Made by a program: the position numbers and the translations under genes. This document shows, one piece after another, positions 3,923-19,111 of a stretch of 41,237 nt of DNA. The stretch lies in contig JACCYU010000159.1 of the NCBI GenBank assembly GCA_013696315.1, positions 1 to 41,237 of the forward strand. Reading direction: 5' to 3'. Origin of the DNA: Gammaproteobacteria bacterium. GTDB taxonomy: Bacteria; Pseudomonadota; Gammaproteobacteria; JACCYU01. The notes beneath the pieces are model-generated. The model was not told the origin of the DNA. It saw nothing but the letters and a program-made list of their open reading frames with translations, and ran no database searches. Position 1 is the stretch's first letter. Every line of letters starts with the position of its first letter.

Positions 3923-5365
3923 TCAGCGGTCCGTCGGGATGGCATACTTCTCCATGCGATAACGCAGCGCCATGCGGGTAACGCCTAACCGCCGCGCGGC
4001 CTCCGACACGTTGCCGTCCGCGCGTTGCAGCGCCTGTCTGATTAGCTGATATTCGGCGGCTTCCAGAGTCATGTCCTCAAGCGCTTCGCCGACCTCCGGC
4101 TGCTGGTCATGGTGCGCGTCGCCGCTTTCCAGGCTCATGGCCGCGAGGGTCAGGCGTCGGCCGTCACTCAGTAACACTGCGCGTTCGACCAGATGCTGAA
4201 GCTCCCGCACATTGCCGGGCCACGTGTAGTTGCACAGCGCCGTGACCAGTTCCTGAGATATCTCCGGTTCCGGCAGCCCGTAACGGTGCGCGGTCTGTTT
4301 CGCAAAATGGCGCGCGAGCAGCACGGGATCGTCGCCTCGTTCCCGCAGCGGCGGCATGGTCAGGGTCAAGACCTTCAGCCGGTAGAACAAATCGGAGCGA
4401 AAGCGTTCCTGTTTGACCATCTCCGCCAGATTGCGATTCGTGGCGGCGATAAACCATGCCGGCACGCGCCGTTCGCGGCTGCTGCCCACCTGCCTGACCG
4501 TACGGCGTTCGAGCACCGTCAGCAATTTCGATTGCAGTTCCAGCGGCAGTTCGGCGATCTCGTTCAAGAATACCGTGCCGTCCTCGGCGGCGACGACCAG
4601 GCCGGTGCGCGCGGTGTGTGCGCCGGTATAGGCGCCCTTCTCGTGACCGAACAGCTCCGCTTCGATGAGGTCCTTGGGCAGCGCGGCGCAATCCACGTGT
4701 ACAAACGGACGCTCACGACGGCTGCTTGCCAGGTGCAACAGCCTGGCCGCCAGATCCTTGCCGCAGCCGGTTTCGCCCAGAATCAAAACGGTAGGCGGTG
4801 AGTCGCTCGAATTGGCGGTAATCGCACCAATACGCTGAATCTGTTTGCGCAATTGTACGATTGCGTCGCTTTCCCCAAGCAACGTCGCGGACTCCAGCGC
4901 CCGGCCGTCGCGTTGCCGCGAATATTCAAGGCTCTGCCGCACCTCCACCTGCCTGAACACCTTCTCGACGATCACCAGCAATTCGTCCAGATCCACCGGC
5001 TTTTTCAGGTAATCCAGCGCTTTGAGTTTTAATGCCGCGACGGCGTCCTCCAGTTCACCGTACGCCGTCATCACCACCACCGGAATATCCGCGCTATCGC
5101 GCTCTCGCAACTGCTCCAGAAAATCCAGCCCGGAGCCATCCGGCAAGCGCATGTCCAGTAGAATCAGGTCAGGTGTAGCACGCGTAATCTGCTCACGCGC
5201 GGTTGCGAGCGTGCCGGCGACATCGCTGACATAACCTTCCTTGCGAAAGCGCTTGGCAATGGCTTTGGCCAGCATCGCCTCGTCTTCCACGATGAGTATG
5301 TGGACTTCAGAGGCAGCACCTCCGTTGGAGGGCTCGGCCGCAGACGTTTTTTCTTCGAGGGTCAT
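3923..5365 (-). CDS. NtrC-family sigma-54-dependent response regulator
   Basis: 480 residues in three domains. The receiver domain (about 21-135) has phosphoacceptor D71 in LLDMRLP, T100 and K121. The AAA+ sigma-54 activator domain (about 162-400) has Walker A GETGCGKD (197-204), the sigma-54 contact loop GAYTGA (244-249; usual form GAFTGA) and Walker B FLNEI, in which N268 replaces the usual Asp before E269. A Fis-type helix-turn-helix lies at about 433-475 (NVSEAARRLGVTRMALRYRM). It should bind enhancer DNA and drive open-complex formation at -24/-12 promoters. It overlaps the upstream kinase gene by four bases (ATGA), so the two are a cotranscribed two-component pair. The nearest -24/-12 promoter is that of pqqA on the other side of the kinase gene, its likely target. 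The Walker B change may lower ATP hydrolysis. Confidence 0.93.
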   Translation of the reverse strand: MTLEEKTSAAEPSNGGAASEVHILIVEDEAMLAKAIAKRFRKEGYVSDVAGTLATAREQITRATPDLILLDMRLPDGSGLDFLEQLRERDSADIPVVVMTAYGELEDAVAALKLKALDYLKKPVDLDELLVIVEKVFRQVEVRQSLEYSRQRDGRALESATLLGESDAIVQLRKQIQRIGAITANSSDSPPTVLILGETGCGKDLAARLLHLASSRRERPFVHVDCAALPKDLIEAELFGHEKGAYTGAHTARTGLVVAAEDGTVFLNEIAELPLELQSKLLTVLERRTVRQVGSSRERRVPAWFIAATNRNLAEMVKQERFRSDLFYRLKVLTLTMPPLRERGDDPVLLARHFAKQTAHRYGLPEPEISQELVTALCNYTWPGNVRELQHLVERAVLLSDGRRLTLAAMSLESGDAHHDQQPEVGEALEDMTLEAAEYQLIRQALQRADGNVSEAARRLGVTRMALRYRMEKYAIPTDR

Positions 5366-6840
5366 ACGGATTCAATTTCAATGGAATCGTTCGTTGGCAG
5401 CGACAAGCGTACGCGCGTACCGCCGCCGGGCGCCTGCTCAAACACAATCCTGCCGCCGTGCGCCTGACTCACCTTGAACGCGAACGGAATGCCGAGCCCG
5501 GTGCCGAAGCGCTTGGTCGATGGCACCGGCGCCAGCCCTTTAGGATCGGGATTCATCGGCATACCGGGGCCCTGATCGTCGATGATCAACGTGATCTCAC
5601 CTGCCGACGACACGATCGCAAGCCCGATCTCCCCGCCCGGCGGCGAGGCGTCGGCGGCATTGTTGATCAGCCCGTGAATCGCCTGTTCCAGCAGATCGGT
5701 ATCGACGAGTAACGCCTGATCACGCCGCCACGCAGAACGCCTGATAGTAAGCTTTTTTGCCTCGAGCTTCGGCTTGAGCGGCGCCAGCGCGCCCTCCACC
5801 ACGGCGGCGAGCGTGGTGCGCGTCTTGTGCGGTTTTAATGGATGCAGATAGGACAGCAGCGATTTGATCCAGCGTTCCAGGCGATCCACCGTGTCGATGA
5901 TCTCCTGCCGCGATTCCCGCAAATCCTCCGCGTCATCCACGTCGTCCATCACCTGCGCGGTAGCTCGAATGCAGGCCAGCGGATTGCGAATGTTGTGCGC
6001 CACCACTGGCACCAGCGCGCCCAGCGCGGCCTGCTTTTCGCTTTCCACGAGCGCATCACGACTCGCAGCGAGCTCGCTCGCCATGTTATTGATCGAGCGC
6101 GCTACCACGGTCACTTCATCCACACCCCAGGTCGGGATGCGATGGTCGAGTCGGCCTTCGCTGATACGCTTGGCGCCCGACACCACCTCACGCATCGGCG
6201 CCACGAAACCGCGCCGGAAACTGCGGTGCGAGAAAAACAGCAATGCCGCCGCCAGCAGGATGGGCGCGGGAATCAGAATGGGCGCCAGCCGCGTCCAGTA
6301 TTCGATCGTCTGCTCCAGCGCCCGGCGCTGTCGCGCAATGATTTTCGAGAATTCCAGAAAAGCATCTTCGAAATTGCCCAGCATCATCCGGTCGTAAGCC
6401 GGGTCCAGGAGCTTTATGCGCTCTGTCACACTGACTGGGGACGCCAGAAACTGATTCATCTCCGCCTGCATCAGGCTGTACGACTGCTGCATGGAGTCGA
6501 TGGCGCGCGTCTCGGCCACGGAATCGGCATGCTGTTGCAATGCGTAGAAATGCTTATCGATGAGATACAGGCGATGCCAGTATTGATCCAGCGCATTGGG
6601 ATCACCGCCCGCGCCGGAACGGGTGATTTCCTTGAGCTGCCGGTACAAATCCCCGCGCACCAGCTGCGCCTCGATCAGCAAGGCGTTGATGCGCACCGAT
6701 TCCTCCGAGGTCTGCTGCCAGAAATACGCCCACAAGCCGCCGATCGCCCCGGTGATAATCACCAGCAGCAGAAAGCTCGTCTGATAAACGAGCAGCAGTT
6801 TTTTTAGCGACCGTGTGCGGATCATTAACTGACGATGCAT
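5362..6840 (-). CDS. Membrane sensor histidine kinase, partner of the NtrC-type regulator
   Basis: 492 residues. A basic N terminus and transmembrane helix (about 14-40) are followed by a helical periplasmic sensor region (about 41-185), a second membrane helix (about 187-206), a HAMP linker (about 207-262), a dimerisation/phosphoacceptor region with H282 in AHNIRNPL, and a C-terminal HATPase with N box (LINNAADAS), G1 (DDQGPGMP) and G2 (GTGLGIPFAFKVSQAHGG). The residue after the phospho-His is Asn where most HisKA kinases have Glu or Asp. The all-helical sensor domain resembles four-helix-bundle sensors but no ligand can be read from it. The gene starts a two-gene operon with the response regulator and is divergent from pqqA across a 439-base intergenic region. 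Confidence 0.92.
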   Translation of the reverse strand: MHRQLMIRTRSLKKLLLVYQTSFLLLVIITGAIGGLWAYFWQQTSEESVRINALLIEAQLVRGDLYRQLKEITRSGAGGDPNALDQYWHRLYLIDKHFYALQQHADSVAETRAIDSMQQSYSLMQAEMNQFLASPVSVTERIKLLDPAYDRMMLGNFEDAFLEFSKIIARQRRALEQTIEYWTRLAPILIPAPILLAAALLFFSHRSFRRGFVAPMREVVSGAKRISEGRLDHRIPTWGVDEVTVVARSINNMASELAASRDALVESEKQAALGALVPVVAHNIRNPLACIRATAQVMDDVDDAEDLRESRQEIIDTVDRLERWIKSLLSYLHPLKPHKTRTTLAAVVEGALAPLKPKLEAKKLTIRRSAWRRDQALLVDTDLLEQAIHGLINNAADASPPGGEIGLAIVSSAGEITLIIDDQGPGMPMNPDPKGLAPVPSTKRFGTGLGIPFAFKVSQAHGGRIVFEQAPGGGTRVRLSLPTNDSIEIESV

Positions 6841-7279: not shown

Positions 7280-7354
7280 ATGAAGTGGACAACCCCAGAA
7301 TATAGCGACGTACGTTTTGGTTTTGAAATCACGATGTACATCAACAACCGGTAA
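7280..7354 (+). CDS. pqqA: PQQ precursor peptide PqqA
   Basis: A 24-residue peptide beginning MKWTTPEY and ending FEITMYINNR. It carries the conserved E-x3-Y pair (E16 and Y20) whose side chains are crosslinked to become the backbone of pyrroloquinoline quinone, and the usual I-x-N-R C terminus. GGAG lies eight bases before the ATG. The known pathway is PqqA bound by PqqD, crosslinked by the radical SAM enzyme PqqE, cut out by proteases, then finished by PqqB and PqqC. Here pqqE follows 294 bases downstream after a terminator. Transcription is probably from the sigma-54 promoter at 7150-7166. Confidence 0.95.
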   Translation: MKWTTPEYSDVRFGFEITMYINNR

Positions 7355-7648: not shown

Positions 7649-8815
7649 GTGAATGAGGTTTCCGCTCGCGATCCCAAGCCGGGGATGCCATTATGGCTGC
7701 TGGCCGAACTCACCTACGCCTGCCCACTGCAATGCCCTTACTGCAGTAACCCGCTAGACATGGCGCAGCAAGGCAAGGAGCTGGATACCGACACCTGGCT
7801 GAGGGTTTTGCGCGAGGCGCGCGCCATGGGCGCGACGCAGCTGGGACTATCAGGTGGGGAACCGTTGTTACGGCGCGATCTTGAAGTAATTATCGCCGAG
7901 GGCCGCAAGCTCGGATTCTATTCGAACCTAATTACGTCGGGTATCGGCATGGATGAGGAGCGCGTAGAAACGTTTCGGCGCGCCGGCCTCGACCACATCC
8001 AGATCAGCTTTCAGGCAAGCTCGCAGGAACTCAACGATTTCCTGGGCGGCACGCACTCATTCGAGCGCAAGCTCGAAATGGCGCGCGCGGTCAAGCGGCA
8101 CGATTATCCAATGGTGCTTAATGTGGTTCTGCACCGCCACAACATCGAGCAACTGGACCAGATTCTGGAAATGGCGATTTCCCTGGATGCGGATTATGTC
8201 GAGCTGGCCAACACTCAGTATTACGGCTGGGCGCTGCATAACCGCGAACAGTTGCTGCCGACGCGCGAGCAACTGCAACATGCGGAAGTTGTCGCCAATG
8301 AGTACCGCGAGCGCCTCAAGCAGCGGATGAAAATCTACTACATCATCCCGGATTATTACGAGGAGCGACCAAAAGCCTGCATGAACGGCTGGGGTAACGT
8401 ATTTCTCACCATTACGCCGGATGGCACCGTCCTGCCCTGCCACGCGGCGCGACAATTGCCTGGGCCTGAACTTCCCAATGTTCGCGACGCGAGCATCGAA
8501 TGGATCTGGCGCGACTCGCCCACGTTCAATCAGTTTCGCGGCTTCGACTGGATGAAGGAACCTTGCCGCAGCTGCCCGGAAAAGACCCGTGATCTCGGCG
8601 GTTGCCGCTGTCAGGCCTACATGCTCACCGGCGATGCGGCGAATGCCGACCCGGTATGCAGTAAATCACCGCATCACGAAACCGTGCTGGATGCTCTCGC
8701 GCGCGCCAACAGCGCGGAGTCCAGAGGCAATCCCAAACCTCTGGTATTCAGAAATCCGCGCAACTCGAAGCAGATTACCGCCGAGCAGCGGGCGACGCCG
8801 GAACATGCAAACTAA
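7649..8815 (+). CDS. pqqE: PqqE, radical SAM enzyme of PQQ biosynthesis
   Basis: 388 residues from GTG 7649, with GAGGAG about nine bases upstream. The radical SAM cluster motif C25-x3-C29-x2-C32 lies in [11 protein letters not shown]. The GGEPLLR motif follows, and the C-terminal SPASM region has its cysteines in CMNGWGN...[22 protein letters not shown] and a final DPVCS. The enzyme makes the carbon-carbon bond between the Glu and Tyr of PqqA, with PqqD as peptide chaperone. PqqD is neither fused nor adjacent. The C terminus extends about 35 residues past the last Cys. The gene ends 21 bases from the convergent aminopeptidase gene. Confidence 0.95.
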
Positions 8816-8836: not shown

Positions 8837-9802
8837 TCAACCGACGAGGCGAGTCGCCATCTGATCGAATACCTGCACCAGCACTTTACCGATCGCTGGG
8901 TCATTCGCGACATGCCCACCGGCTTCCACAACACGTAACTCTGATCCAGGCAGCGCGCGATGCGCCGTCCACGCGGATTCCAGTGGACACACGAGATCAC
9001 GCTGGCCGTGAACGATGGTGCAGGGTTTGTCGTTTAAAACTTCGAAATCCAGCGGCACGCCCTCGCCGCCCAGAAAAAATTTGTAATGGGCGTAGTGATT
9101 GACGATCGCCGCGCGGCGGTGGATTTCATCCGCATCCATGCTGCCGGCTTTATTATTTCTCGTCGGCATAAATTGCCTGACCACCCGTGTTTCCCAGGCG
9201 TTCCAGCCACGCGCGGCGGCCATTTGTACGCTCTGTTCCGGCGCGTGCAGCAAGCGATGGTACTCGGATACCGGACTCGCGCGCTCCGGCTCAGGAAGAT
9301 GCTCGATGAACGACGCGTAGTCTTGCGGGAACAGGCGCCCGACGCCATCCTTGCTGTAAAACCAAGCCAGATCGCGCAATCGCGCGAGGAACGTGCCGCG
9401 CAGCACCAGCGCTGCAACGCGTCGCGGCCACCGCCTTAAATAAAGCAGCGCCAGGGTAGCGCCCCATGAGCCGCCATACAGCAACCACTGTTCGATATCG
9501 AGGTGCGACCTTAATCGCTCCAGGTCCGCGAGCAATGCCTGCGTATTGTTATTCTTCAGGCAACCGGCGGGGTGCGAGCGCCCGGCGCCACGCTGATCTA
9601 TCAGCACGATTCGGTAAATGGCTGGATTAAAGAAGCGCCGATGACTGGGCGCGCAGCCCGAACCCGGGCCGCCATGCAGAAACAGGACGGGAATGCCGTC
9701 GGGATTTCCGCACTGTTCGTAGTAAAGCCTATGCGGCTGCTCCACATCAAGCATACCCGACGCGTACGGCTCTATTGCAGGATAGAGATACTGATCTGAC
9801 AC
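8837..9802 (-). CDS. pip: Prolyl aminopeptidase (peptidase S33)
   Basis: 321 residues from GTG 9802 (MSDQYLYPAIEPYASGML...), the usual length for the family; the frame stays open further upstream, but that part only mirrors the neighbouring permease gene. The alpha/beta hydrolase features are the oxyanion motif HGGPGSG (43-49), DQRGAGRS, nucleophile S112 in GGSWGATL, the catalytic Asp in VHGQRDLVCP and His in EAGGHVAND. Prolyl aminopeptidases remove N-terminal proline from peptides in the cytoplasm. It is the last gene of the long minus-strand series, 32 bases after the PedC-type permease, and faces pqqE tail to tail. PQQ needs proteolysis of crosslinked PqqA, so a role in trimming that peptide is possible but not shown. 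Confidence 0.9.
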   Translation of the reverse strand: MSDQYLYPAIEPYASGMLDVEQPHRLYYEQCGNPDGIPVLFLHGGPGSGCAPSHRRFFNPAIYRIVLIDQRGAGRSHPAGCLKNNNTQALLADLERLRSHLDIEQWLLYGGSWGATLALLYLRRWPRRVAALVLRGTFLARLRDLAWFYSKDGVGRLFPQDYASFIEHLPEPERASPVSEYHRLLHAPEQSVQMAAARGWNAWETRVVRQFMPTRNNKAGSMDADEIHRRAAIVNHYAHYKFFLGGEGVPLDFEVLNDKPCTIVHGQRDLVCPLESAWTAHRALPGSELRVVEAGGHVANDPAIGKVLVQVFDQMATRLVG

Positions 9803-9834
9803 GAAAGAAGTTTCACGATGAACGATCCGCCCCT

Positions 9835-10644
9835 TCAGGCAGGAGTCGGCGCGCGACTCGCCATGCCGCGCTGCGGGTCGTAACCATATACCGAGAGCAC
9901 GAAAAACACGATTCCGCTGCCCACAACTACGGCCAGACTGATTGCGTTGAGCTGACCGTAGAGCGCGAAGCGGATCAGCTCGATTGTGTGCGTGAAGGGA
10001 TTGAACCGCGCAAGCGTATAAATGATTTCGGCGCCGGACGCATCCAGCTTCCGCAGGGGGTAAAGCGCCGAAGAAATAAAGAACATCGGGAAGATGACGA
10101 AATTCATGGTGCCCGCAAAGTTTTCCAGCTGCTTGATATGCACAGACAGCAGCAGGCCCAGCGAACCCAGCATCATACCGCCCAGAACGAGGGCCGGCAG
10201 GGCATAAAGCCAGCCGATCATTGGAATGTCCACATCGAACAGCACGCACAACAGCAAGAACGCGTACGCCTGCAATACAGAGAGCAATGTCCCGGCCATG
10301 AGCTTGCACAGCAACAGATACCAACGGGGCAACGGCGCCGTCAGCAGCAACCGCATCAGGCCCATTTCACGATCGTAAACCATCGACAGCGAAGACTGCA
10401 TACTATTGAACAGCAGCACCATTCCGAGCAGGCCGGGCGCGATGTAGACCTGGTACTCGACTTGAGCATCGTAAGGCGGAACGACGGCCACGCCGGACAT
10501 GTGCTGAAAGCCAGCCGCGAATACAATCAGCCATAACGCGGGACGCACCAGCGCAGAAATCAGACGCCCTTTCTGATGCCAGAATTTGGTGACCTCGCGG
10601 CTGCCCAGCGCCTGCATGCCCCGCAGCGCGTGCATAGGCGTCAT
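9835..10644 (-). CDS. ABC-2 type permease, PedC-like, PQQ-associated
   Basis: 269 residues with about six membrane helices and the ABC-2 permease pattern: LISALVRPALWLIVFAAGF early, the YDREMGLMRLLLTAPLPRWY cytoplasmic loop in the middle, and FPMFFISSALYPL near the C terminus. GGAG lies eight bases before ATG 10644. The sequence and its pairing with the ATPase just upstream fit the permease family that accompanies PQQ-dependent alcohol dehydrogenase clusters (PedC type). The substrate of these transporters is not known; export is suggested by the ABC-2 fold. A 123-base gap separates it from the ATPase gene. Confidence 0.85.
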   Translation of the reverse strand: MTPMHALRGMQALGSREVTKFWHQKGRLISALVRPALWLIVFAAGFQHMSGVAVVPPYDAQVEYQVYIAPGLLGMVLLFNSMQSSLSMVYDREMGLMRLLLTAPLPRWYLLLCKLMAGTLLSVLQAYAFLLLCVLFDVDIPMIGWLYALPALVLGGMMLGSLGLLLSVHIKQLENFAGTMNFVIFPMFFISSALYPLRKLDASGAEIIYTLARFNPFTHTIELIRFALYGQLNAISLAVVVGSGIVFFVLSVYGYDPQRGMASRAPTPA

Positions 10645-10767
10645 GAGCGCGCTCCGTTGATATCAGATGGGACGACAACCCAGGCATACGCCCCGCAACG
10701 TTGCGTGCGCCTGATGACAACCCTTTTTAGACACGTGTTCGGCGTCCACCGTCGCAATGCATCCATG

Positions 10768-11535
10768 CTACCGCTCACCGCTCTTCTCTGGACTAACGCC
10801 AGTCATGCTCAGGAATGCTTGCGACAAGCTGCCGGCGCGCGTGTCGCGCAGCAATTCCGTCGGCGTCTTCGCCGCCAGCAACCGCCCCTGATGCAACACC
10901 AGCACTCTGTCCGCCTGTTCCGCCTCGTCCACCAGATGCGTGGCCCATAACACGCCCATGCCGCGCGCGGCGCAGAGTTCATGGACATAGCTGACCAGCG
11001 AGGAGCGCGAAGCGGGATCGAGACCCACCGTCGCTTCGTCCATCAACAGCACGTTGGGGTCGTGCAGCAGCGCGCGCGCGAGCTCGATCTTACGACGATT
11101 ACCACCGCTTAACGCCCGACAGGATTCCTCCGCCCGGCCTTCGAGACCGAGACGTTGCAACTCTACCTCGATGCGCGTGCGGGCGCGTTCCCTGTTCAGG
11201 CCATGCAGCCGGCAGTGAAACAGCAGATTGGCGCGCACGCTCATGTCCATATCGAGGGTAGGCTGCTGGAACACCACACCGATGCCGGCCAGGGCGTGGA
11301 TGGGTTTGCGGCGGATGTCATGGCCGCGAATGTGAATGTCGCCGCTATCCGCGACGAAGAGTCCGGTCAAAAGCTGGAACAGGGTCGTCTTGCCCGCGCC
11401 GTTCGGGCCCAGCAGGGCGACAAACTCGCCCGTGTCCACGTGCAGACTGACGTTGTCCAGCGCCTTGCGCGCGCCGTAGGACTTGCTGGCGGATGCGACC
11501 TTCAGCACCTTTTCCCGCGCCTGGGTAGCGCACAT
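10768..11535 (-). CDS. ABC transporter ATPase of the PQQ-associated family
   Basis: 255 residues from ATG 11535; an in-frame TTG at 11556 with AAGG upstream would add seven residues. Walker A is GPNGAGKTT, the Q-loop VFQQPTLDMDMSV, the signature LSGGNRRKIE, Walker B LLMDEATVGLDP (DEAT instead of DEPT) and the H-loop WATHLVDE. The wording FQQPTLDxDxSV, VGLDPASR and LWATHLVDE is what I know from ATPases of PQQ-dependent-catabolism gene clusters, and it pairs with the PedC-type permease downstream. It would power transport at the inner membrane. It starts 58 bases after the binding-protein gene and probably shares its transcript. Confidence 0.88.
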   Translation of the reverse strand: MCATQAREKVLKVASASKSYGARKALDNVSLHVDTGEFVALLGPNGAGKTTLFQLLTGLFVADSGDIHIRGHDIRRKPIHALAGIGVVFQQPTLDMDMSVRANLLFHCRLHGLNRERARTRIEVELQRLGLEGRAEESCRALSGGNRRKIELARALLHDPNVLLMDEATVGLDPASRSSLVSYVHELCAARGMGVLWATHLVDEAEQADRVLVLHQGRLLAAKTPTELLRDTRAGSLSQAFLSMTGVSPEKSGER

Positions 11536-11593
11536 GGCCGCGCCGGTATCGTTCAAGCGCCGCGCCTTTCGATCACTTCACCCGGTGCCACGG

Positions 11594-12781
11594 TCACCTC
11601 GCGGGCGACCCGATTGTGAAGCCGCGCCAAAAAGTGCCGGGACTTAACGAAGTGCTGGACCCCACGAGTTCGCTGCCGCCCTCGCGCGCCAGTATCGCGA
11701 ATACCTGCTTCGCGGCCTCGATTTCCGCATTGCCAAAGTGCAGCGGAATGCCCTCCCGGTACGCCTTTCTTAACGCCTGCAATGTCGCTTCGTCCCGCGC
11801 CTGGGTGAGCGGTGCGATGCGCTCCCATTCCTGCTCCGACTCAGCCAGAATATGCTTGGCGGCGTAGGTCGCGCGCAAAAACCCCTGCGCCAGCGTCGGG
11901 TTCTTCACAGCCCAGTCTTCGCTGAACACCCACACCAGCAGCGGCACCGGTTCTTCAACCCCCAGCTCGGCTAACGCCTCATCGATGCCGATCAGCGGCT
12001 TCATGCCAGCCGCTTCAAGCCGCGCCGCGTAATGCCAGTAGTTAATCAACGCGGGCAAAACACCCCTGAGCGCCAGTACGTTCAGCAGCGGCGGCGCGGC
12101 ATAAGTGGGCTCCACCATGTCCGCCAGGTCTTCGTTAAGTGTTTGACGCGCGTAGGCGCGCAGCAACAGCCAGCTCTTGTCGACCGGACCGCCAGCCACA
12201 CCCAGCTTCCTGCCGGCCAGGTCCGCGAGCACGTCGATGCCCGCGTCGGGCCGCACCAGCAGCGCACCTTCCGTAAGGGAATACGGCACGGCCGTAAAGT
12301 TCCGGTTGGCGGCACGCTGCCGGGACACCCAGATCCAGTCGCCCACCACCATGTCGATATCACCGCTTCGCAGCGCCACGTTCAGCGCACTGGTGGAACT
12401 GAGCGGCACGATTTCCATTTCCACGCCCTCGCGCTCGGCGAGCCCATGCTGCGCCACGACATCCAGTTCCCACGATACCGTGCCGAAATGCAGCACACCT
12501 ACCCGCACTGGCTCGAGCTCCCCGGCCCGCGCCGCGCCGCAAACAATCAACAGAAAACAAATGACGAAAACCGCCTCAAAAAGATGGCGCAAAAACGGCC
12601 GCGCAAGATCAAAAGGCGCGATCATGCGAACAACGGCGAGGCTCATTGGCAGGGTCGGCTGTTTAGACGTACCGAATGTGGACACGACACTGTGCACAAA
12701 ATTCACTACTTGAGTCAGGGCAGACGACCGCCGCATGCGGGAAAGCATCCGGGTCGCGCGCCGCCGCATGACACTCTTCAC
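11594..12781 (-). CDS. SsuA/THI5-like periplasmic binding protein
   Basis: Up to 395 residues from GTG 12781, which overlaps the AttH-like stop as GTGA and has GGAG five to six bases upstream, pointing to coupled translation. This start puts about 52 residues before the hydrophobic signal segment (AVFVICFLLIVCGAARA). In-frame ATGs at 12646 and 12625 would give a conventional signal peptide but lack clear ribosome-binding sites. The mature part has the NMT1/SsuA pattern: VRVGVLHFGTVSWELDVVAQHGL, SALNVALRSGDIDMVVGDW, LAGRKLGVAGGP. Such proteins bind small organic ligands for import. Here the following transporter is ABC-2 type, so an import role is uncertain; the protein may act as a sensor or periplasmic accessory. 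Confidence 0.82.
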   Translation of the reverse strand: MKSVMRRRATRMLSRMRRSSALTQVVNFVHSVVSTFGTSKQPTLPMSLAVVRMIAPFDLARPFLRHLFEAVFVICFLLIVCGAARAGELEPVRVGVLHFGTVSWELDVVAQHGLAEREGVEMEIVPLSSTSALNVALRSGDIDMVVGDWIWVSRQRAANRNFTAVPYSLTEGALLVRPDAGIDVLADLAGRKLGVAGGPVDKSWLLLRAYARQTLNEDLADMVEPTYAAPPLLNVLALRGVLPALINYWHYAARLEAAGMKPLIGIDEALAELGVEEPVPLLVWVFSEDWAVKNPTLAQGFLRATYAAKHILAESEQEWERIAPLTQARDEATLQALRKAYREGIPLHFGNAEIEAAKQVFAILAREGGSELVGSSTSLSPGTFWRGFTIGSPAR

Positions 12782-13923
12782 GTTCTCTCCGCATAGCCTG
12801 TCAGCTCCACGTAACCCATGCCGCTGACTCGGTCAGTGCCGCACAAGCCCGTAACATCGACCGCGCCTTCCCAGTAGCGCACCAGCACGTCCAGCTCCTG
12901 ATCGGCCATGATGGGCGTGACGATTAAACGGCAGTCGCACGCAGGTATTGTCAGCCGCCAGCGCGCCGGGTAGCGACCACCGCGCGGGCTGGACCAGTGC
13001 GCCAGCGTTTCGATCCGCACGTCGCTGGCGACCAGCGTAACGCTGTTGCCGAGCGCGTCAACCCAGACACCGCCGCTGTTGGGATCAGTCGCATCACGCG
13101 TGTCACGCAGGCGATAAAACATGATATCGGCACCATCGTTCAGTTGCAGCGCGAACCAGTCCCAACCCTGCTGATCGTCCGCGAGCGAGCCGCTGCTCCA
13201 CTCCCTATCCAGCCACGACAAGCCGTTGAGGTCAATGATCTCACCATCCAGGGTGAGCGTGCCGACGGTGCTCAGACGCGTGAAAGAGTAATAATACGAT
13301 GCATGACCTTTCGCGCTCTTGCGGTCCAGACCACGATTACCCTGCAACACCAGCGGCTTTTGTGGCGACAGCGCCAGCGCCAGCCGCCAATTGCCGGCGT
13401 TGGCTTCCAGCCGCCACGGAAAACCACCGCCTGGGCGCGCCGCGACTCGCCAATCTTCCAGCCATACTCGAAACGGCGCGGTCCGCGCGCCCGCCAGACC
13501 CATCGCGCCGCGGCTGAAACGCTCGTAACACTCGAACCGATGCTCTTGCCGGTCGGTTAACGCGAGGTGCGCGGTATAGAGCTGATCGGTGCGCCACGCC
13601 GACCTGCCCGGCGTCTGGTTGGGGCTTAGCGCAATACGGAACAGGGTCAGCTCATACCCGAAGCGTCGGCCATCGGCGGCCTGTAAGTTGCCCGTGAAAT
13701 ACCACCACTCCTGGCGGAAATCCGGATGCGCGCCAAAGTCGGCCGGAAACCGGAAGCGGCGCGCCCGATCCGCCTGCGCATAGCCCGCGCTGTCGCCGAG
13801 CACGCCGGCAAGATCGTTTTCGTGCACGGGCGGCGCCGTATCACGGTCGGTAAAGAGAACGCGCAAACTCAGCGTTATCAGGACAATGAGCAATCCGCAT
13901 ATAATCAACCGGACCCGCGCCAT
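12778..13923 (-). CDS. AttH-like lipocalin/carotenoid 1,2-hydratase-fold secreted protein
   Basis: 381 residues with an N-terminal membrane anchor or uncleaved signal (about 4-24), then the two-lipocalin AttH/CrtC pattern: FPADFGAHPDFRQEWWYFTGNL near the N terminus, GYELTLFRIAL, YTAHLALTD, GHASYYYSFTRL, LNGLSWLDREWSS and GWDWFALQL in the middle, and YWEGAVDVTG, GMGYVELTGY at the end. These proteins are usually encoded next to an ATPase and FtsX-type permease (the AttEFGH arrangement), exactly as here, where its ATG directly follows the permease stop. The molecular role is not established; a hydrophobic ligand handled at the periplasmic face is a common guess. It overlaps the next gene by four bases. 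Confidence 0.87.
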   Translation of the reverse strand: MARVRLIICGLLIVLITLSLRVLFTDRDTAPPVHENDLAGVLGDSAGYAQADRARRFRFPADFGAHPDFRQEWWYFTGNLQAADGRRFGYELTLFRIALSPNQTPGRSAWRTDQLYTAHLALTDRQEHRFECYERFSRGAMGLAGARTAPFRVWLEDWRVAARPGGGFPWRLEANAGNWRLALALSPQKPLVLQGNRGLDRKSAKGHASYYYSFTRLSTVGTLTLDGEIIDLNGLSWLDREWSSGSLADDQQGWDWFALQLNDGADIMFYRLRDTRDATDPNSGGVWVDALGNSVTLVASDVRIETLAHWSSPRGGRYPARWRLTIPACDCRLIVTPIMADQELDVLVRYWEGAVDVTGLCGTDRVSGMGYVELTGYAERT

Positions 13924-16476
13924 TTATTCCGCCCGCAATCCTGCCGCAGGGCGCGAGGTCGCCGCCTGGAAACCGGGATAGATACTGGCCGCCAGTGCCG
14001 CGGTGAGCGCCAGCGCCAGCGTCTGCAACAGCGCCTCTGGCGCGATTGAGACTGGCATGCTCCAGCCAAACGACCGCCGATTGATCACCTCGATCAATAC
14101 CAGCGACATTACCACCCCAAGCGGCATTGCCAGCAGGCCCGTGCATAAGCCCAGTAATCCGGCTTCGCCCGTAATCAGCACGACGATCTGGCCTTGTGTA
14201 AAGCCGGTCGCGCGCAACACCGCGAACTCCTTGCCGCGTTCCAGCAGCAGCGCCATGAACGCGCTCAAGACACCCACCACGGCGACCACCATAGTCAGCA
14301 CTCGCAACACCTGCGTGATCGCGAAAGTACGGTCGAAGATCGCCATCGTCTGCGCGCGCAACTCGCCGGTGGCGCGGACCAGCACCGGCTGCAAACCTTG
14401 GACCGCGGCCCGCAATCGCGCCCGCACCTGACGCGCGGCCACGCCCCCGCTTAACCGAACGCCAAGCGAGGAGACGCTGCGGTCCCGCCACCAGCGCGCA
14501 TAAAGCGCGCGCGACATCGCCACCACACCTTGATCCGAGCCGTAATCATAGAACATGCCGGCAATCCTGAAGCCCCGTTTGCCATGGTCGGTTCGCAACA
14601 CGATGAAGTCGCCCGGCACCCGTTGATGTCTATACGCATAAGGTTCGGAGACTAGGACCGCTGTCCCGCGTCTGAACGCACGTCGCGCGGCGTCCGGATC
14701 GCCGGCCTTGAACATAAAGCCGAGCCGCGCGGATGGCGAGTTTTCGATCACGTGTAAGCGGGCTTCATGCGCGCCTGTCCGCACCGTGACCCAGCGGTGC
14801 GCTTCGACATCCGCGACGCCTTGTACGTTTGCGATCCGCCGCACGAGTCTCTGCGACAGTACCGACTCTGCGCCTTCTACGTCGGATGAGGGCGTGATCA
14901 CATAGAGATCGGCGCGCAAGGTCGCGCCCAGCCAGGCGGCGACCGAGCCGCGAAAGCTGTCGATCATGATTGTTACGCCAGCCACCGCCGCCACGGACAC
15001 GACCAGCGCTGCGCTCGCCACGGCGGTGCGGCTCAGACTGGCTTGTGCGCCGCGCGCGGCGAGGCGGCCCGGCGATCCGAACCAGTAAGCAAGCGGAGCT
15101 TGCGCCAGTTGCATCATGGTGGCCACCGCCGCTGGTGTGACCAACGCATAGCCCGCACTGACCAGCAGTAGCGCAACAAATCCGAGCCACAGCGACTGAC
15201 CCGCGGTCAATAGCACGGCGCCTGCAAGCATGATCGCCACACCCGCCGGCGCCAGCCACCTGACCAGCCGTCGCGCACCGCGCTCCAGGTGCGAGCGGGT
15301 GCGCGCCTCCAGCGGTGTTGCGCGCGCCGCTTCCAACGCCGGACCCATCGCGGCCAGCAGACTGGCGCCGATACCGAGCGCAGCACCCTTGGTCAGGGTG
15401 CCCGCATCGACAGCCCAGGTGTTGACGCTGAATGTAAAGTACAGATCGTTGATCGTGCGGGTGACCAGCGCGAGCAGCCCCTGCGCCAGCACCGCACCGC
15501 CCGGCAGGCCGATAGCCACCGCGAGCAGGCTCAACCCCACCGCCTCCACCAGTATCAGACGGAAGATCTGTGTCCGGCCCGCGCCCAGCATCCGCAGGTT
15601 CGCGATCAGTCCACGGCGCCGAAAAACCGAGAGGCTCATGGTGCTGTAGATCAGGAACATGCCGATCAGCAGCGCCAGCAGACTCATCGCTGTCAGATTG
15701 GTGGCGAATGCGTGCGTCATCTGCGTCATGGCCTCGCTGCGCGCGGCGGCGCGTTCGACCCGGGCATCCGCCGGCAGCAACGCACCAATTCGCGCGCGCA
15801 GGCGCTCACCCTGCAAGCCCGCGGGCAGCCTCAGGTCGATACCGCTCAGACGCCCGAACCGGTCCAGCAGCGTCTGCGCCGTGGCGATATCCGCGATCAT
15901 CAGGCCGTCGATCGCCGCCTGCGGCTGGGCGGCATGAGCCAGGTGCGCGAGCAGCTGAACCGATCGTTTGCGGCCACTGGCCTTGACCTTGAATCGGTCG
16001 CCGGTTGCAACACGCAGACGCTCGCCGGTCGCGCGTGACATCAATACGGCGCCCGGTTCCGTAATCAGTTGGTCGATCGGAATATCGCCACCGAAGGTAA
16101 CGTATTTGCGGATAGGCGCCTCCGCGATGGGATCGACACCGAGCAGCCGCAGGGTTTCGCCGCGCACCTCGACGAACCCCTCCAGCACCGGCGCGCTGTT
16201 CCGCAACGCCAGCCTGACGCGCAGTTTTCGATAGAGCGCCTCATCCAGCCCGTGCGCGCCGCCAGTGATGCGATGCGTGGCGCGGCCTGAAGCCGCTTCT
16301 ATGGAACCCCGGAAAGAACGCTCCGCGGCGCTGGTCGCGCCGTCGACCGCGACCACCATGGCTACACCGACCGCGACGCCGGCGACGGCCATACCAAGCT
16401 GCCAGGGGTAGCGGAGCAGATAGCGCAGGCTCGCCCGCACCAGCAAGGTATCAGCGTAGGAAACCAACCAGAACAA
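13924..16476 (-). CDS. FtsX-type ABC permease, fused AttF/AttG-like
   Basis: 850 residues with the double MacB/FtsX-type permease layout: one membrane helix near the N terminus (about 27-47), a large periplasmic domain (about 48-255), three helices (about 260-385), a central pair (about 405-460), another helix (about 490-512), a second periplasmic domain and three C-terminal helices (about 715-840). Such proteins move lipids, lipoproteins or small hydrophobic compounds out of the inner membrane. The start is uncertain: TTG 16476 has no clear ribosome-binding site, and start codons slightly downstream (such as the GTG before RASLRYLLRYPW) are possible. Its ATPase lies 153 bases upstream and its AttH-like partner begins immediately downstream. 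Confidence 0.88.
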   Translation of the reverse strand: MFWLVSYADTLLVRASLRYLLRYPWQLGMAVAGVAVGVAMVVAVDGATSAAERSFRGSIEAASGRATHRITGGAHGLDEALYRKLRVRLALRNSAPVLEGFVEVRGETLRLLGVDPIAEAPIRKYVTFGGDIPIDQLITEPGAVLMSRATGERLRVATGDRFKVKASGRKRSVQLLAHLAHAAQPQAAIDGLMIADIATAQTLLDRFGRLSGIDLRLPAGLQGERLRARIGALLPADARVERAAARSEAMTQMTHAFATNLTAMSLLALLIGMFLIYSTMSLSVFRRRGLIANLRMLGAGRTQIFRLILVEAVGLSLLAVAIGLPGGAVLAQGLLALVTRTINDLYFTFSVNTWAVDAGTLTKGAALGIGASLLAAMGPALEAARATPLEARTRSHLERGARRLVRWLAPAGVAIMLAGAVLLTAGQSLWLGFVALLLVSAGYALVTPAAVATMMQLAQAPLAYWFGSPGRLAARGAQASLSRTAVASAALVVSVAAVAGVTIMIDSFRGSVAAWLGATLRADLYVITPSSDVEGAESVLSQRLVRRIANVQGVADVEAHRWVTVRTGAHEARLHVIENSPSARLGFMFKAGDPDAARRAFRRGTAVLVSEPYAYRHQRVPGDFIVLRTDHGKRGFRIAGMFYDYGSDQGVVAMSRALYARWWRDRSVSSLGVRLSGGVAARQVRARLRAAVQGLQPVLVRATGELRAQTMAIFDRTFAITQVLRVLTMVVAVVGVLSAFMALLLERGKEFAVLRATGFTQGQIVVLITGEAGLLGLCTGLLAMPLGVVMSLVLIEVINRRSFGWSMPVSIAPEALLQTLALALTAALAASIYPGFQAATSRPAAGLRAE

Positions 16477-16629
16477 TTACGTAAAGAGATCGGTCCCCGC
16501 GGTTGAAAGCGCTGCTGGGAGACGCAGCACGGAAACGGAGGGCAGGCTCGCGCCGCATGCATGAGCCTGACAGAATCGGCCGCTGGGGGCGCACGCGTAC
16601 GGGCGGCATGTGGTTCGCTCCCCTGCCCA

Positions 16630-17313
16630 CTAAACCGGCCGCAGGCGACCGTCAGCCATCAGCAGAACACGGTCGGCCAGCGCCGCGAGTTGCTCGCTGT
16701 GGGTCACCAGAATCAAGGTCGCGCCCGCGGCGCGGACTAGGCTGTCCAGCAGCGCCGCGACGCGTGCGCCGCTGTCCGCGTCCAGATTGCCGGTCGGCTC
16801 GTCCGCCAGAATCAACCGTGGTTTATGCACCAGCGCGCGGGCTAAAGCGATCCGCTGCTGCTCGCCTCCGGACAGCACGTCGGGATAGCTGTCGGTGCGA
16901 TCCGCCAATCCGACTTGCGACAGCATCGCCTGCGCCTGATCGCGCGCACGCGGCGGCCGGTGACCATTCAACGCCAGCGGTAGACACACGTTTTCGAGCA
17001 CGGTGAGGGTTGGGATCAGATTGAATGATTGATAAATGAAGCCGATATGGGAGCGCCTGAACACGGTGCGCTCCCGCTCGGAAAGACCGGTAACGGTCTG
17101 ACCATCGATCTCGATGCTGCCTGCATCGGGACGATCGATGCCGCTGATCAGATTCAGCAACGTGGATTTGCCGCAACCGCTCTGCCCGACCACCGCCGCG
17201 AACTCGCCCTGGGCAAACTCGACACTCAGATCATTCAGCACCGCGCGTGCGCGTTCACCTTCAACGTAACAGCGGCTCACACCGCGCAAACATACGAATT
17301 CAGAGCCTTGCAC
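16630..17313 (-). CDS. LolD/MacB-type ABC ATPase, AttE-like
   Basis: 227 residues, the usual length. It shows Walker A GQSGCGKST, the Q-loop IGFIYQSFNLIPTLTVLENV, signature LSGGEQQRIALARAL, Walker B LILADEPTGNLD and H-loop VTHSEQL. The FIYQSFNL and DEPTGNLD wording is typical of ATPases serving FtsX-type permeases. It begins the minus-strand series whose next members are the fused permease and AttH-like protein, so the three form one transport complex at the inner membrane. The gene is divergent from the second histidine kinase, across 326 bases. Confidence 0.92.
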   Translation of the reverse strand: MQGSEFVCLRGVSRCYVEGERARAVLNDLSVEFAQGEFAAVVGQSGCGKSTLLNLISGIDRPDAGSIEIDGQTVTGLSERERTVFRRSHIGFIYQSFNLIPTLTVLENVCLPLALNGHRPPRARDQAQAMLSQVGLADRTDSYPDVLSGGEQQRIALARALVHKPRLILADEPTGNLDADSGARVAALLDSLVRAAGATLILVTHSEQLAALADRVLLMADGRLRPV

Positions 17314-17639: not shown

Positions 17640-19111
17640 ATGCGTATCGCTCTCCAAAACACGCTGGCGCTGCTGGCGCTGTATTTAGTTCTGGTAATCT
17701 GCCTCATTGTTGTGCTCCGGGCTGAACTTGGCGCTGCGCTGTTCGACCGTATTTACGCCAGCGTGCTGCTGGCGGCGCTCAGCGGGCTCGGATCCATAAT
17801 CCTCATTGGCGCGTTGCTGCAGGTGCAGTTGAAACGCATGAGCGCGGGGCTGGCGGCGCTGATGGAGGCCGTGGCAAACGGCGACACCGAGGCGTTGAGG
17901 CAGCGGGACGATGAATTTTCGGCCGTGCGTGATGCCGCCAACAGGTTAGGGAACGAAATCACGGCGGCGCGCGACAAGCTGGACGCGGTAGCCAATGTTT
18001 TCGATGTTGGTGTCATCCTGATATCGCCGGACGGCTCCCCTGACTATATCAACCAGACCGCACGCCAGATCCTCATCTGCAATCGCGTGCAGGATTTCGC
18101 GGCGCGCTTCACCGAAATGTATGTGAAACTGAAAGAGGCCATCGACAAAGTATGCCAGGGCAGCGGGGGGGGGAGAGACTGACCAATATCGAATTAACTG
18201 TCGGCAAGGCCGGTGTTACTAAACGGCTGCGGGTGGAATTGCAAGCGCTCGGCTCTGCCGATAACCGGGGTTGCCTGCTTATCGTAGAGGATCAAGATCT
18301 GATTGATGCGCTGGACGAGGATCTGCGCGCGGCCACGCAGGCGCGCGGCCTGTCCCGCCTGTATGCGGCCGCAGCGCACGACCTCAAGGCGCCGCTCAAC
18401 GCCATGAACCTTAACATGGAGATGCTCAAACGCAGCCTCGATGCCGATGACGCCAACGCCCGCCCGCGGCGGGAACATTATCTCAAGGTAATAATTCAGG
18501 AATCCGCACGGCTGAACCGATTGCTCAACTCACTGCTGGAGCAGAGTGCGCCGGCCGCGGAGGGTCGCACCACGGTCGACCTTGTGCGGCTCATCGACGA
18601 GCTGGCGACCTTGCTGACGCCGCAGGCGCGTCACCAGCAGGTCACGTTCGACGTTAGTCTGCCGATTGACGCCGTGCGGATATTCGGTAACGCGGGTCAA
18701 CTCAAGCAGGCTTTGCTGAACATTATCCTGAACGCGCTGGAATGCGTGACGGAAAACGGGCGCGTGGGGGTCTCGCTCCGCACCGAGGCATCTTCAGCGT
18801 TAATCGAGATCGAAGACGACGGGGCCGGCGTCCCTGCGTTACTGCAACCCAGCATCTTCGACATGCACTTCACCACCAAAGAGACCGGCACCGGTATCGG
18901 TTTGTATGTCGCGCGAGCGGTGATCGAACGGCATGGCGGCGAAATCCAGCTTCAATCCAGATCAGGCGCGGGTACCCGATTCATTCTGTCATTGCCGTTG
19001 CATCAGCGAGCCTCACCGCCGGCCAAGATGCGCCTCCCGAAATTAACCCTACGTCCGCGCGATAGCTTTCCGGTCGCGCCGGCGCAACGTAACAGACCGG
19101 CTTGCAGATGA
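17640..19111 (+). pseudogene. Sensor histidine kinase split by a frameshift in a G9 tract
   Basis: The first part (ATG 17640 to stop 18182) encodes two membrane helices (about 6-28 and 43-66), a HAMP-like linker, a coiled segment and a PAS-like domain (FDVGVILISPDGSPDYIN). The second part continues in another frame through ERLTNIELTV..., then the H box AAHDLKAPLNAM, N box LLNIILNALECV, G1 IEDDGAGVP and G2 TGIGLYVARAVIERHGG, ending at 19111. The frames join at the run of nine G (18165-18173): a tenth G would restore one protein of about 490 residues. The lesion separates sensor from kinase domains. It could be a phase-variation tract, an inactivating mutation or a homopolymer read error. No response regulator is adjacent. 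The kinase half has an in-frame ATG at 18152 but no good ribosome-binding site. Confidence 0.8.

Follow-up and report, generated by a model that had tools for sequence, protein, structure and literature searches.

A series of seven minus-strand genes in a gammaproteobacterial contig brings together two ABC systems, an AttEFGH-like one and a PedC-type one, with a periplasmic binding protein and a prolyl aminopeptidase, all beside the PQQ biosynthesis genes pqqA and pqqE. An initial annotation had proposed that these components share a role in moving a PQQ-related or hydrophobic substrate across the envelope. Whether they form one system, or separate systems that have come to lie side by side, is considered here. 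The window comprises positions 1 to 41,237 of contig JACCYU010000159.1 (GCA_013696315.1; genome G000), and it was compared with a sister species of the same genus (G001), a member of another genus of the same family (G002) and a sample of 369 Gammaproteobacteria, from which G002 was left out because it is 78% complete.

Gene content and organisation of the locus

All seven genes between nt 8837 and 17313 are present and intact, and the coordinates, order and, apart from the binding protein, family identities given in the initial annotation were recovered (Table 1). They would be transcribed in the order attE, attFG, attH, the gene for the substrate-binding protein (SBP), pedB, pedC and pip, and dN/dS values relative to G001 lie between 0.07 and 0.32 across all seven.

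Table 1. Features of the seven-gene series and the adjoining pqq genes (window coordinates).
Feature	Position	Strand	Evidence
pqqA, MKWTTPEYSDVRFGFEITMYINNR, with E-x-x-x-Y	7280..7354	+	Read and translated from the sequence
pqqE	7649..8815	+	TIGR02109, 568 bits; convergent with the series
Prolyl aminopeptidase Pip, S33, GTG start	8837..9802	-	TIGR01249, 333.8 bits (cut-off 259.75)
PedC-type ABC-2 permease, LutF-like	9835..10644	-	TIGR03861, 361 bits (cut-off 241.35)
PedB-type ABC ATPase, LutE-like	10768..11556	-	TIGR03864, 329.9 bits (cut-off 302.25)
PqqT-family periplasmic PQQ-binding-type SBP (predicted)	11594..12646	-	PDB 9b1u/9b1v, E 9.2e-59
AttH, periplasmic CrtC/Lipocalin_9 protein	12778..13923	-	PF07143, 199 bits; PF17186, 145 bits
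AttFG, fused double FtsX-type permease, 850 aa	13924..16476	-	PF02687 and PF12704, two stretches each
AttE-like ABC ATPase, LolD/MacB type	16630..17313	-	TIGR02211, 227 bits (under equivalog cut-off); PF00005

The gaps are 154 bp between attE and attFG, 0 bp between attFG and attH, 37 bp between the SBP gene and pedB, 123 bp between pedB and pedC, and 32 bp between pedC and pip. The distance from attH to the SBP gene is about 131 bp with the ATG near nt 12646 taken as the start, while an alternative GTG start at nt 12781 gives a 4-bp overlap with attH. On the gene layout, one shared transcript for the whole series is plausible. Scans of the window for promoters and terminators gave counts at or under the shuffled expectation, and an Rfam search of the window returned zero matches. 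The series had been described as ending at pqqE, but that gene lies on the plus strand, tail-to-tail with pip, with the 3' ends 21 bp apart. Because it is convergent with the seven genes it is not co-transcribed with them, and both pqqE and pqqA were ruled out as the end of the operon by their opposite strand.

Two sets of regulatory genes lie nearby. A sensor histidine kinase (nt 17640–19111) is read in two overlapping frames with a break near nt 18170, while in G001 the same kinase is a single frame of 548 aa (L017, 7132–8775); the split in the window reflects either a frameshift mutation or a sequencing error. An AtoSC/NtrC-type sensor kinase with a sigma-54 response regulator (nt 3923–6840) lies immediately upstream of pqqA, on the other strand, and at least the sensor kinase of this pair is shared by the sister species (L017).

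PQQ genes, XoxF and a second prolyl aminopeptidase

The remaining biosynthetic genes, pqqB, pqqC and pqqD, are carried on a separate contig (L016; G000:C203, 3815–5855), where MoxR-like and DUF58-like genes were recognised by inspection as neighbours. The genome encodes one clear PQQ alcohol dehydrogenase, a XoxF (G000:C111:2632–4293) that matches the lanthanide-dependent XoxF structure 6dam with 907.8 bits (E 4e-272) and shares its WDYDG motif, including the DYD pair. Genes for MBL-fold, SoxYZ-like and pentapeptide-repeat proteins surround it, again by inspection (L160; G000:C111, 3–4500). Among the 369 Gammaproteobacteria, PedC exceeds its cut-off in 20 genomes, and 17 of these also carry pqqE, against 2.7 expected. 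This enrichment, together with the encoded XoxF, makes a lanthanide/PQQ context for the PedC-type genes well supported, and the PQQ link suggested by the initial annotation is further borne out by the identity of the SBP (see below).

The peptidase at the end of the series aligns with prolyl aminopeptidase 1azw over 307 residues, including the GGSWG nucleophile motif, in agreement with its score above the family cut-off, and thus resembles an active S33 enzyme (1azw, 1qtr) in both sequence and motifs. It differs from the housekeeping enzyme, encoded at G000:C101, in being a divergent second copy tied to pqqE and PedC. With the window and G001 left out, Pip was found within about 7 kb of pqqE in 17 of 52 gammaproteobacterial pqqE loci (L176–L178, L182, L183, L185, L187–L192, L203, L204, L208, L147 and L152). 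It lies downstream of pqqE in all 17 and is convergent with it in 16. Random placement would give about 0.5 such loci (P about 1e-21 with p=0.01 per locus, the related genomes not being independent). A dihydropteroate synthase gene, folP, recognised by motif, comes next after pip in at least 11 of the 17. In a tree with 20 housekeeping rows, where the placement of the mis-framed L236 and L239 was disregarded, most copies linked to pqqE or PedC stand apart from the housekeeping copies, and the window Pip is placed together with the copies of G208 and G075, both likewise next to PedC or PedB (support 93/90; bootstrap not settled).

PqqF was considered as a counterpart of Pip; M16-type matches occur in 48 of 51 genomes, one of them over the cut-off, and show no complementary pattern. 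Among the papers searched, none joins pqqE with a prolyl aminopeptidase or proline iminopeptidase, and the link of Pip and FolP with PQQ biosynthesis is recurring and apparently undescribed. As guesses at what Pip does beside pqqE, it could trim the PqqA peptide or have a role connected with pterins.

A reduced Ped cluster with a PqqT homologue

The SBP had been annotated as SsuA-like. Its best Pfam and NCBIfam family matches are weak (NMT1/SBP class), and direct sequence comparison instead identifies a homologue of PqqT of Methylorubrum (Methylobacterium) extorquens AM1: residues 49–343 align with residues 3–297 of 9b1u, the full mature length, and a profile of 11 cluster SBPs matches the PqqT structures with an E-value of 3.7e-88. 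Structures of SsuA, TauA and NrtA were not among its structure matches at E<=1e-3, and a sulfonate-binding identity was rejected, as the SsuA score is 25.9 bits against a cut-off of 163.5. PqqT is described as binding PQQ with a Kd of 50 nM, and is proposed to prevent PQQ loss and help in its capture (PMC12124388). Structure 9B1V is described as PqqT with PQQ and Gd3+, and K142 as the residue exchanged in an engineered La3+-binding variant (PMC12828617). The lysine of a DK(S/N)W motif, invariant in all 11 SBP relatives, probably corresponds to K142, the PqqT lysine in contact with PQQ, assuming an offset of 27 residues between crystal chain and precursor (likely the signal peptide). Unlike PqqT of AM1, the window SBP is an orphan without an SsuC/SsuB-type partner, and adjoins PedBC and AttH.

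PedB retains intact Walker A, signature and Walker B motifs, and PedC is 56–82% identical to PedC of other clusters. In Pseudomonas putida, PedA1A2BC is required for growth at nanomolar La3+ and dispensable for calcium-dependent growth with PedE (PMC6839425). Its homologue in M. extorquens, LutABEF, functions in the transport of lanthanides: on methanol with La3+, growth is slow in lutA and lutB mutants and fails in lutE and lutF mutants. Lanthanide accumulates in the periplasm of the latter two (PMC7391723). That slow growth indicates that the core can work, poorly, without A1 and A2. Movement of PQQ by a PedC-type transporter, as had been suggested, is unlikely, because deletion of pedA1A2BC in P. 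putida leaves the PQQ-dependent PedE growth unharmed (PMC6839425). The genome of the window shares with these systems PedB and PedC over their cut-offs, XoxF and the pqq genes. It differs in lacking PedA1 (TIGR03863) and PedA2 (TIGR03866) and in having a PqqT-type SBP next to PedB; the cluster is therefore not a full PedA1A2BC system, but may still work as the core alone does.

Comparison with other PedC loci shows what is missing. Of the 18 PedC genomes that belong to other families, eight have a PqqT-type SBP, an SsuC-type permease and an SsuB-type ATPase within the PedC locus, as does G002, and the order PqqT-SsuC-SsuB-PedB-PedA2-PedA1-PedC is found in G027, G128, G168 and G002. G000 and G001 have PqqT-PedB-PedC instead, the genes being 37 and about 120 bp apart. 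PedA1 is present in 18 of the 20 PedC genomes, and in G002; G000 and G001 are the sole exceptions, with no match at E<=1e-3 in these draft genomes (96% and 99% complete). PedA2, clear in G002, G027, G075 and G128, gives weak partial matches in the two species (best 70.5 bits against a cut-off of 287.3), and searches of both genomes for SsuC gave no meaningful match. The 123-bp gap between pedB and pedC holds no recognisable scar of PedA1 or PedA2. Of the two ABC machines reported as complete in the initial annotation, that of the AttEFGH type is so, but the PedC-type one lacks PedA1 and PedA2, and the SBP its SsuC and SsuB. In G002 the SsuC-type permease gene (L027; G002:C387, 5402–6102) has a frameshift and an in-frame TGA, and so the SsuC part is already decaying within the family. 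An intermediate arrangement was observed in G142 (L157, L194), where the cluster reads PqqT-SsuC-SsuB-PedB-PedC and PedA1 is carried by a different contig, some 8.5 kb away from pqqE.

The ancestral operon was probably PqqT-SsuC-SsuB-PedB-PedA2-PedA1-PedC, from which the genus of the window lost SsuC/SsuB and PedA2/PedA1. The genes that remain have low dN/dS between G000 and G001 (pedC 0.073, pqqT 0.216, pedB 0.232) and, with the motifs of PedB intact after the losses, they are under selection. The reduced operon would most likely supply XoxF, whose gene lies at another site in the genome. Its PqqT homologue would capture or hold PQQ in the periplasm, and PedB-PedC, the catalytic core of PedA1A2BC/LutABEF, would move Ln3+ or a lanthanide complex inward, either less efficiently or together with a different binding partner. 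Pip would belong to a kind of peptidase found repeatedly next to pqqE and PedC. Against this, the only known sign of lanthanide import without PedA1 and PedA2 is a weak residual phenotype.

One candidate for the other partner is PqqT itself, which may have taken over from PedA1 the part of binding protein to PedBC, to give a hybrid importer of PQQ, or of a PQQ-Ln3+ complex, for XoxF. In G000 and G001 alike, pqqT abuts pedB with a gap of 37 bp, all three genes are under purifying selection after both cognate partners were lost, and PqqT with PQQ is described as crystallised with Gd3+ (PMC12828617). However, the junction may be no more than the trace of a deletion, and SBPs of the PqqT type normally pair with SsuBC-type, not ABC-2, permeases. 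We regard such an exchange as rather unlikely, because PqqT acting alone as a periplasmic PQQ reservoir explains its retention equally well.

The loss of four of the seven cluster genes in the genus, and the damaged SsuC of G002, could also mean that PedBC and PqqT are the decaying and now functionless remainder of a lanthanide/PQQ importer. This is very improbable given the low dN/dS of pedC, pqqT and pedB (values above) and the intact ATPase motifs; the loss is older than the split of G000 and G001, yet selection persists. There is similarly slight likelihood that PedBC, which has an ABC-2 exporter fold and no PedA1 in the genome, became, or always was, a DrrAB-like exporter, for example of PQQ or a lanthanophore. 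Growth with PedE after deletion of the whole transporter in P. putida shows that the family is not needed for PQQ export there (PMC6839425), and the periplasmic lanthanide accumulation in lutE and lutF mutants (PMC7391723) also speaks against export.

AttEFGH and its neighbourhood

AttE of the window is 50–62% identical to AttE proteins adjoining AttH in other phyla. AttFG consists of two MacB_PCD/FtsX halves, and its position between attE and attH is conserved in other genomes. The lipocalin-like identity proposed for AttH was confirmed by its CrtC and Lipocalin_9 domains and by a match to PDB 2ich ('Putative AttH'; E 8.7e-57). When about 85,000 species genomes were scanned for AttH, 80 loci were fetched, and attE, attFG and attH occur together in at least 60 of them, many of the remainder being cut off at contig edges. 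The loci with all three genes come from Gamma- and Deltaproteobacteria, Myxococcota, Chloroflexi, Gemmatimonadetes, Planctomycetes and others, and in these fetched loci no PedC, PqqT-type SBP, Pip or pqqE was found beside AttEFGH, consistent with its earlier description as a separate unit. The window shares the gene order and domain content of this LolCDE/MacB-type unit with dozens of bacteria, and differs from them in the PQQ/lanthanide supply operon downstream, which is found only in its family. AttEFGH is best read as free-standing and functionally apart from the Ped genes. Its family suggests an ABC machine of type VII (LolCDE/MacB-like) that works with a two-domain lipocalin in the periplasm; at the inner membrane it would most likely extract or handle lipids or other hydrophobic compounds.

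Among the 369 Gammaproteobacteria, AttH is found in 85 genomes and occurs together with PedC in 8, against 4.6 expected (P=0.06); attH and pedC are adjacent only in G000 and G001. AttH and PedC share genomes barely more often than expected. AttH and pqqE occur together in 21 genomes against 11.5 expected (P=0.001, uncorrected for kinship or genome size), somewhat more than chance, which leaves room for a loose link. Outside the family, attH and attFG are missing from all 18 PedC loci. The initial annotation had named in advance, as evidence against a joint role, a neighbouring genome in which the two ABC systems are separated, and such a separation was found in G002. There attFG is followed by a short remnant of attH and by a MATE-like gene in the opposite orientation, beyond which lies the Ped cluster. 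The attFG-SBP neighbourhood is kept in both genera, a point against the reading as two units. Still, since the MATE-like gene interrupts it in G002, the junction of AttEFGH and Ped genes is a neighbourhood at the level of the family that one of the three members has already broken up. A widespread fusion of the two was rejected, the adjacency being confined to this one family (three genomes). The MATE-like gene itself (L027, 7350–8978) lies between attFG and the PqqT cluster.

A single envelope transport system, in which AttEFGH and PedBC/PqqT act on one PQQ-related or hydrophobic substrate, would fit the tight spacing in G000 and G001, the attFG-SBP neighbourhood of G002 and the slight excess of AttH with pqqE, but is most improbable in view of the free-standing AttEFGH of other bacteria, the PedC loci without attH or attFG, and the interrupted G002 locus with its reduced attH. 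The locus is probably a composite island instead, a reading built on the identities and order of the genes, the losses, the purifying selection and the encoded XoxF. A reduced PQQ/lanthanide-supply operon, with predicted substrates, direction of transport and transcription, would here lie beside a functionally separate AttEFGH.

How lanthanides and PQQ are delivered to XoxF-type enzymes is an active question. The genus of the window is apparently a natural deletion mutant of PedA1A2BC/Lut in which PedB, PedC and PqqT have been kept under selection, and it lets the dispensability of PedA1 and PedA2, and cooperation between PqqT and PedBC, be tested directly. In several gammaproteobacterial families, PedABC clusters also house PqqT with its SsuBC-type transporter, which ties PQQ recapture to lanthanide uptake.
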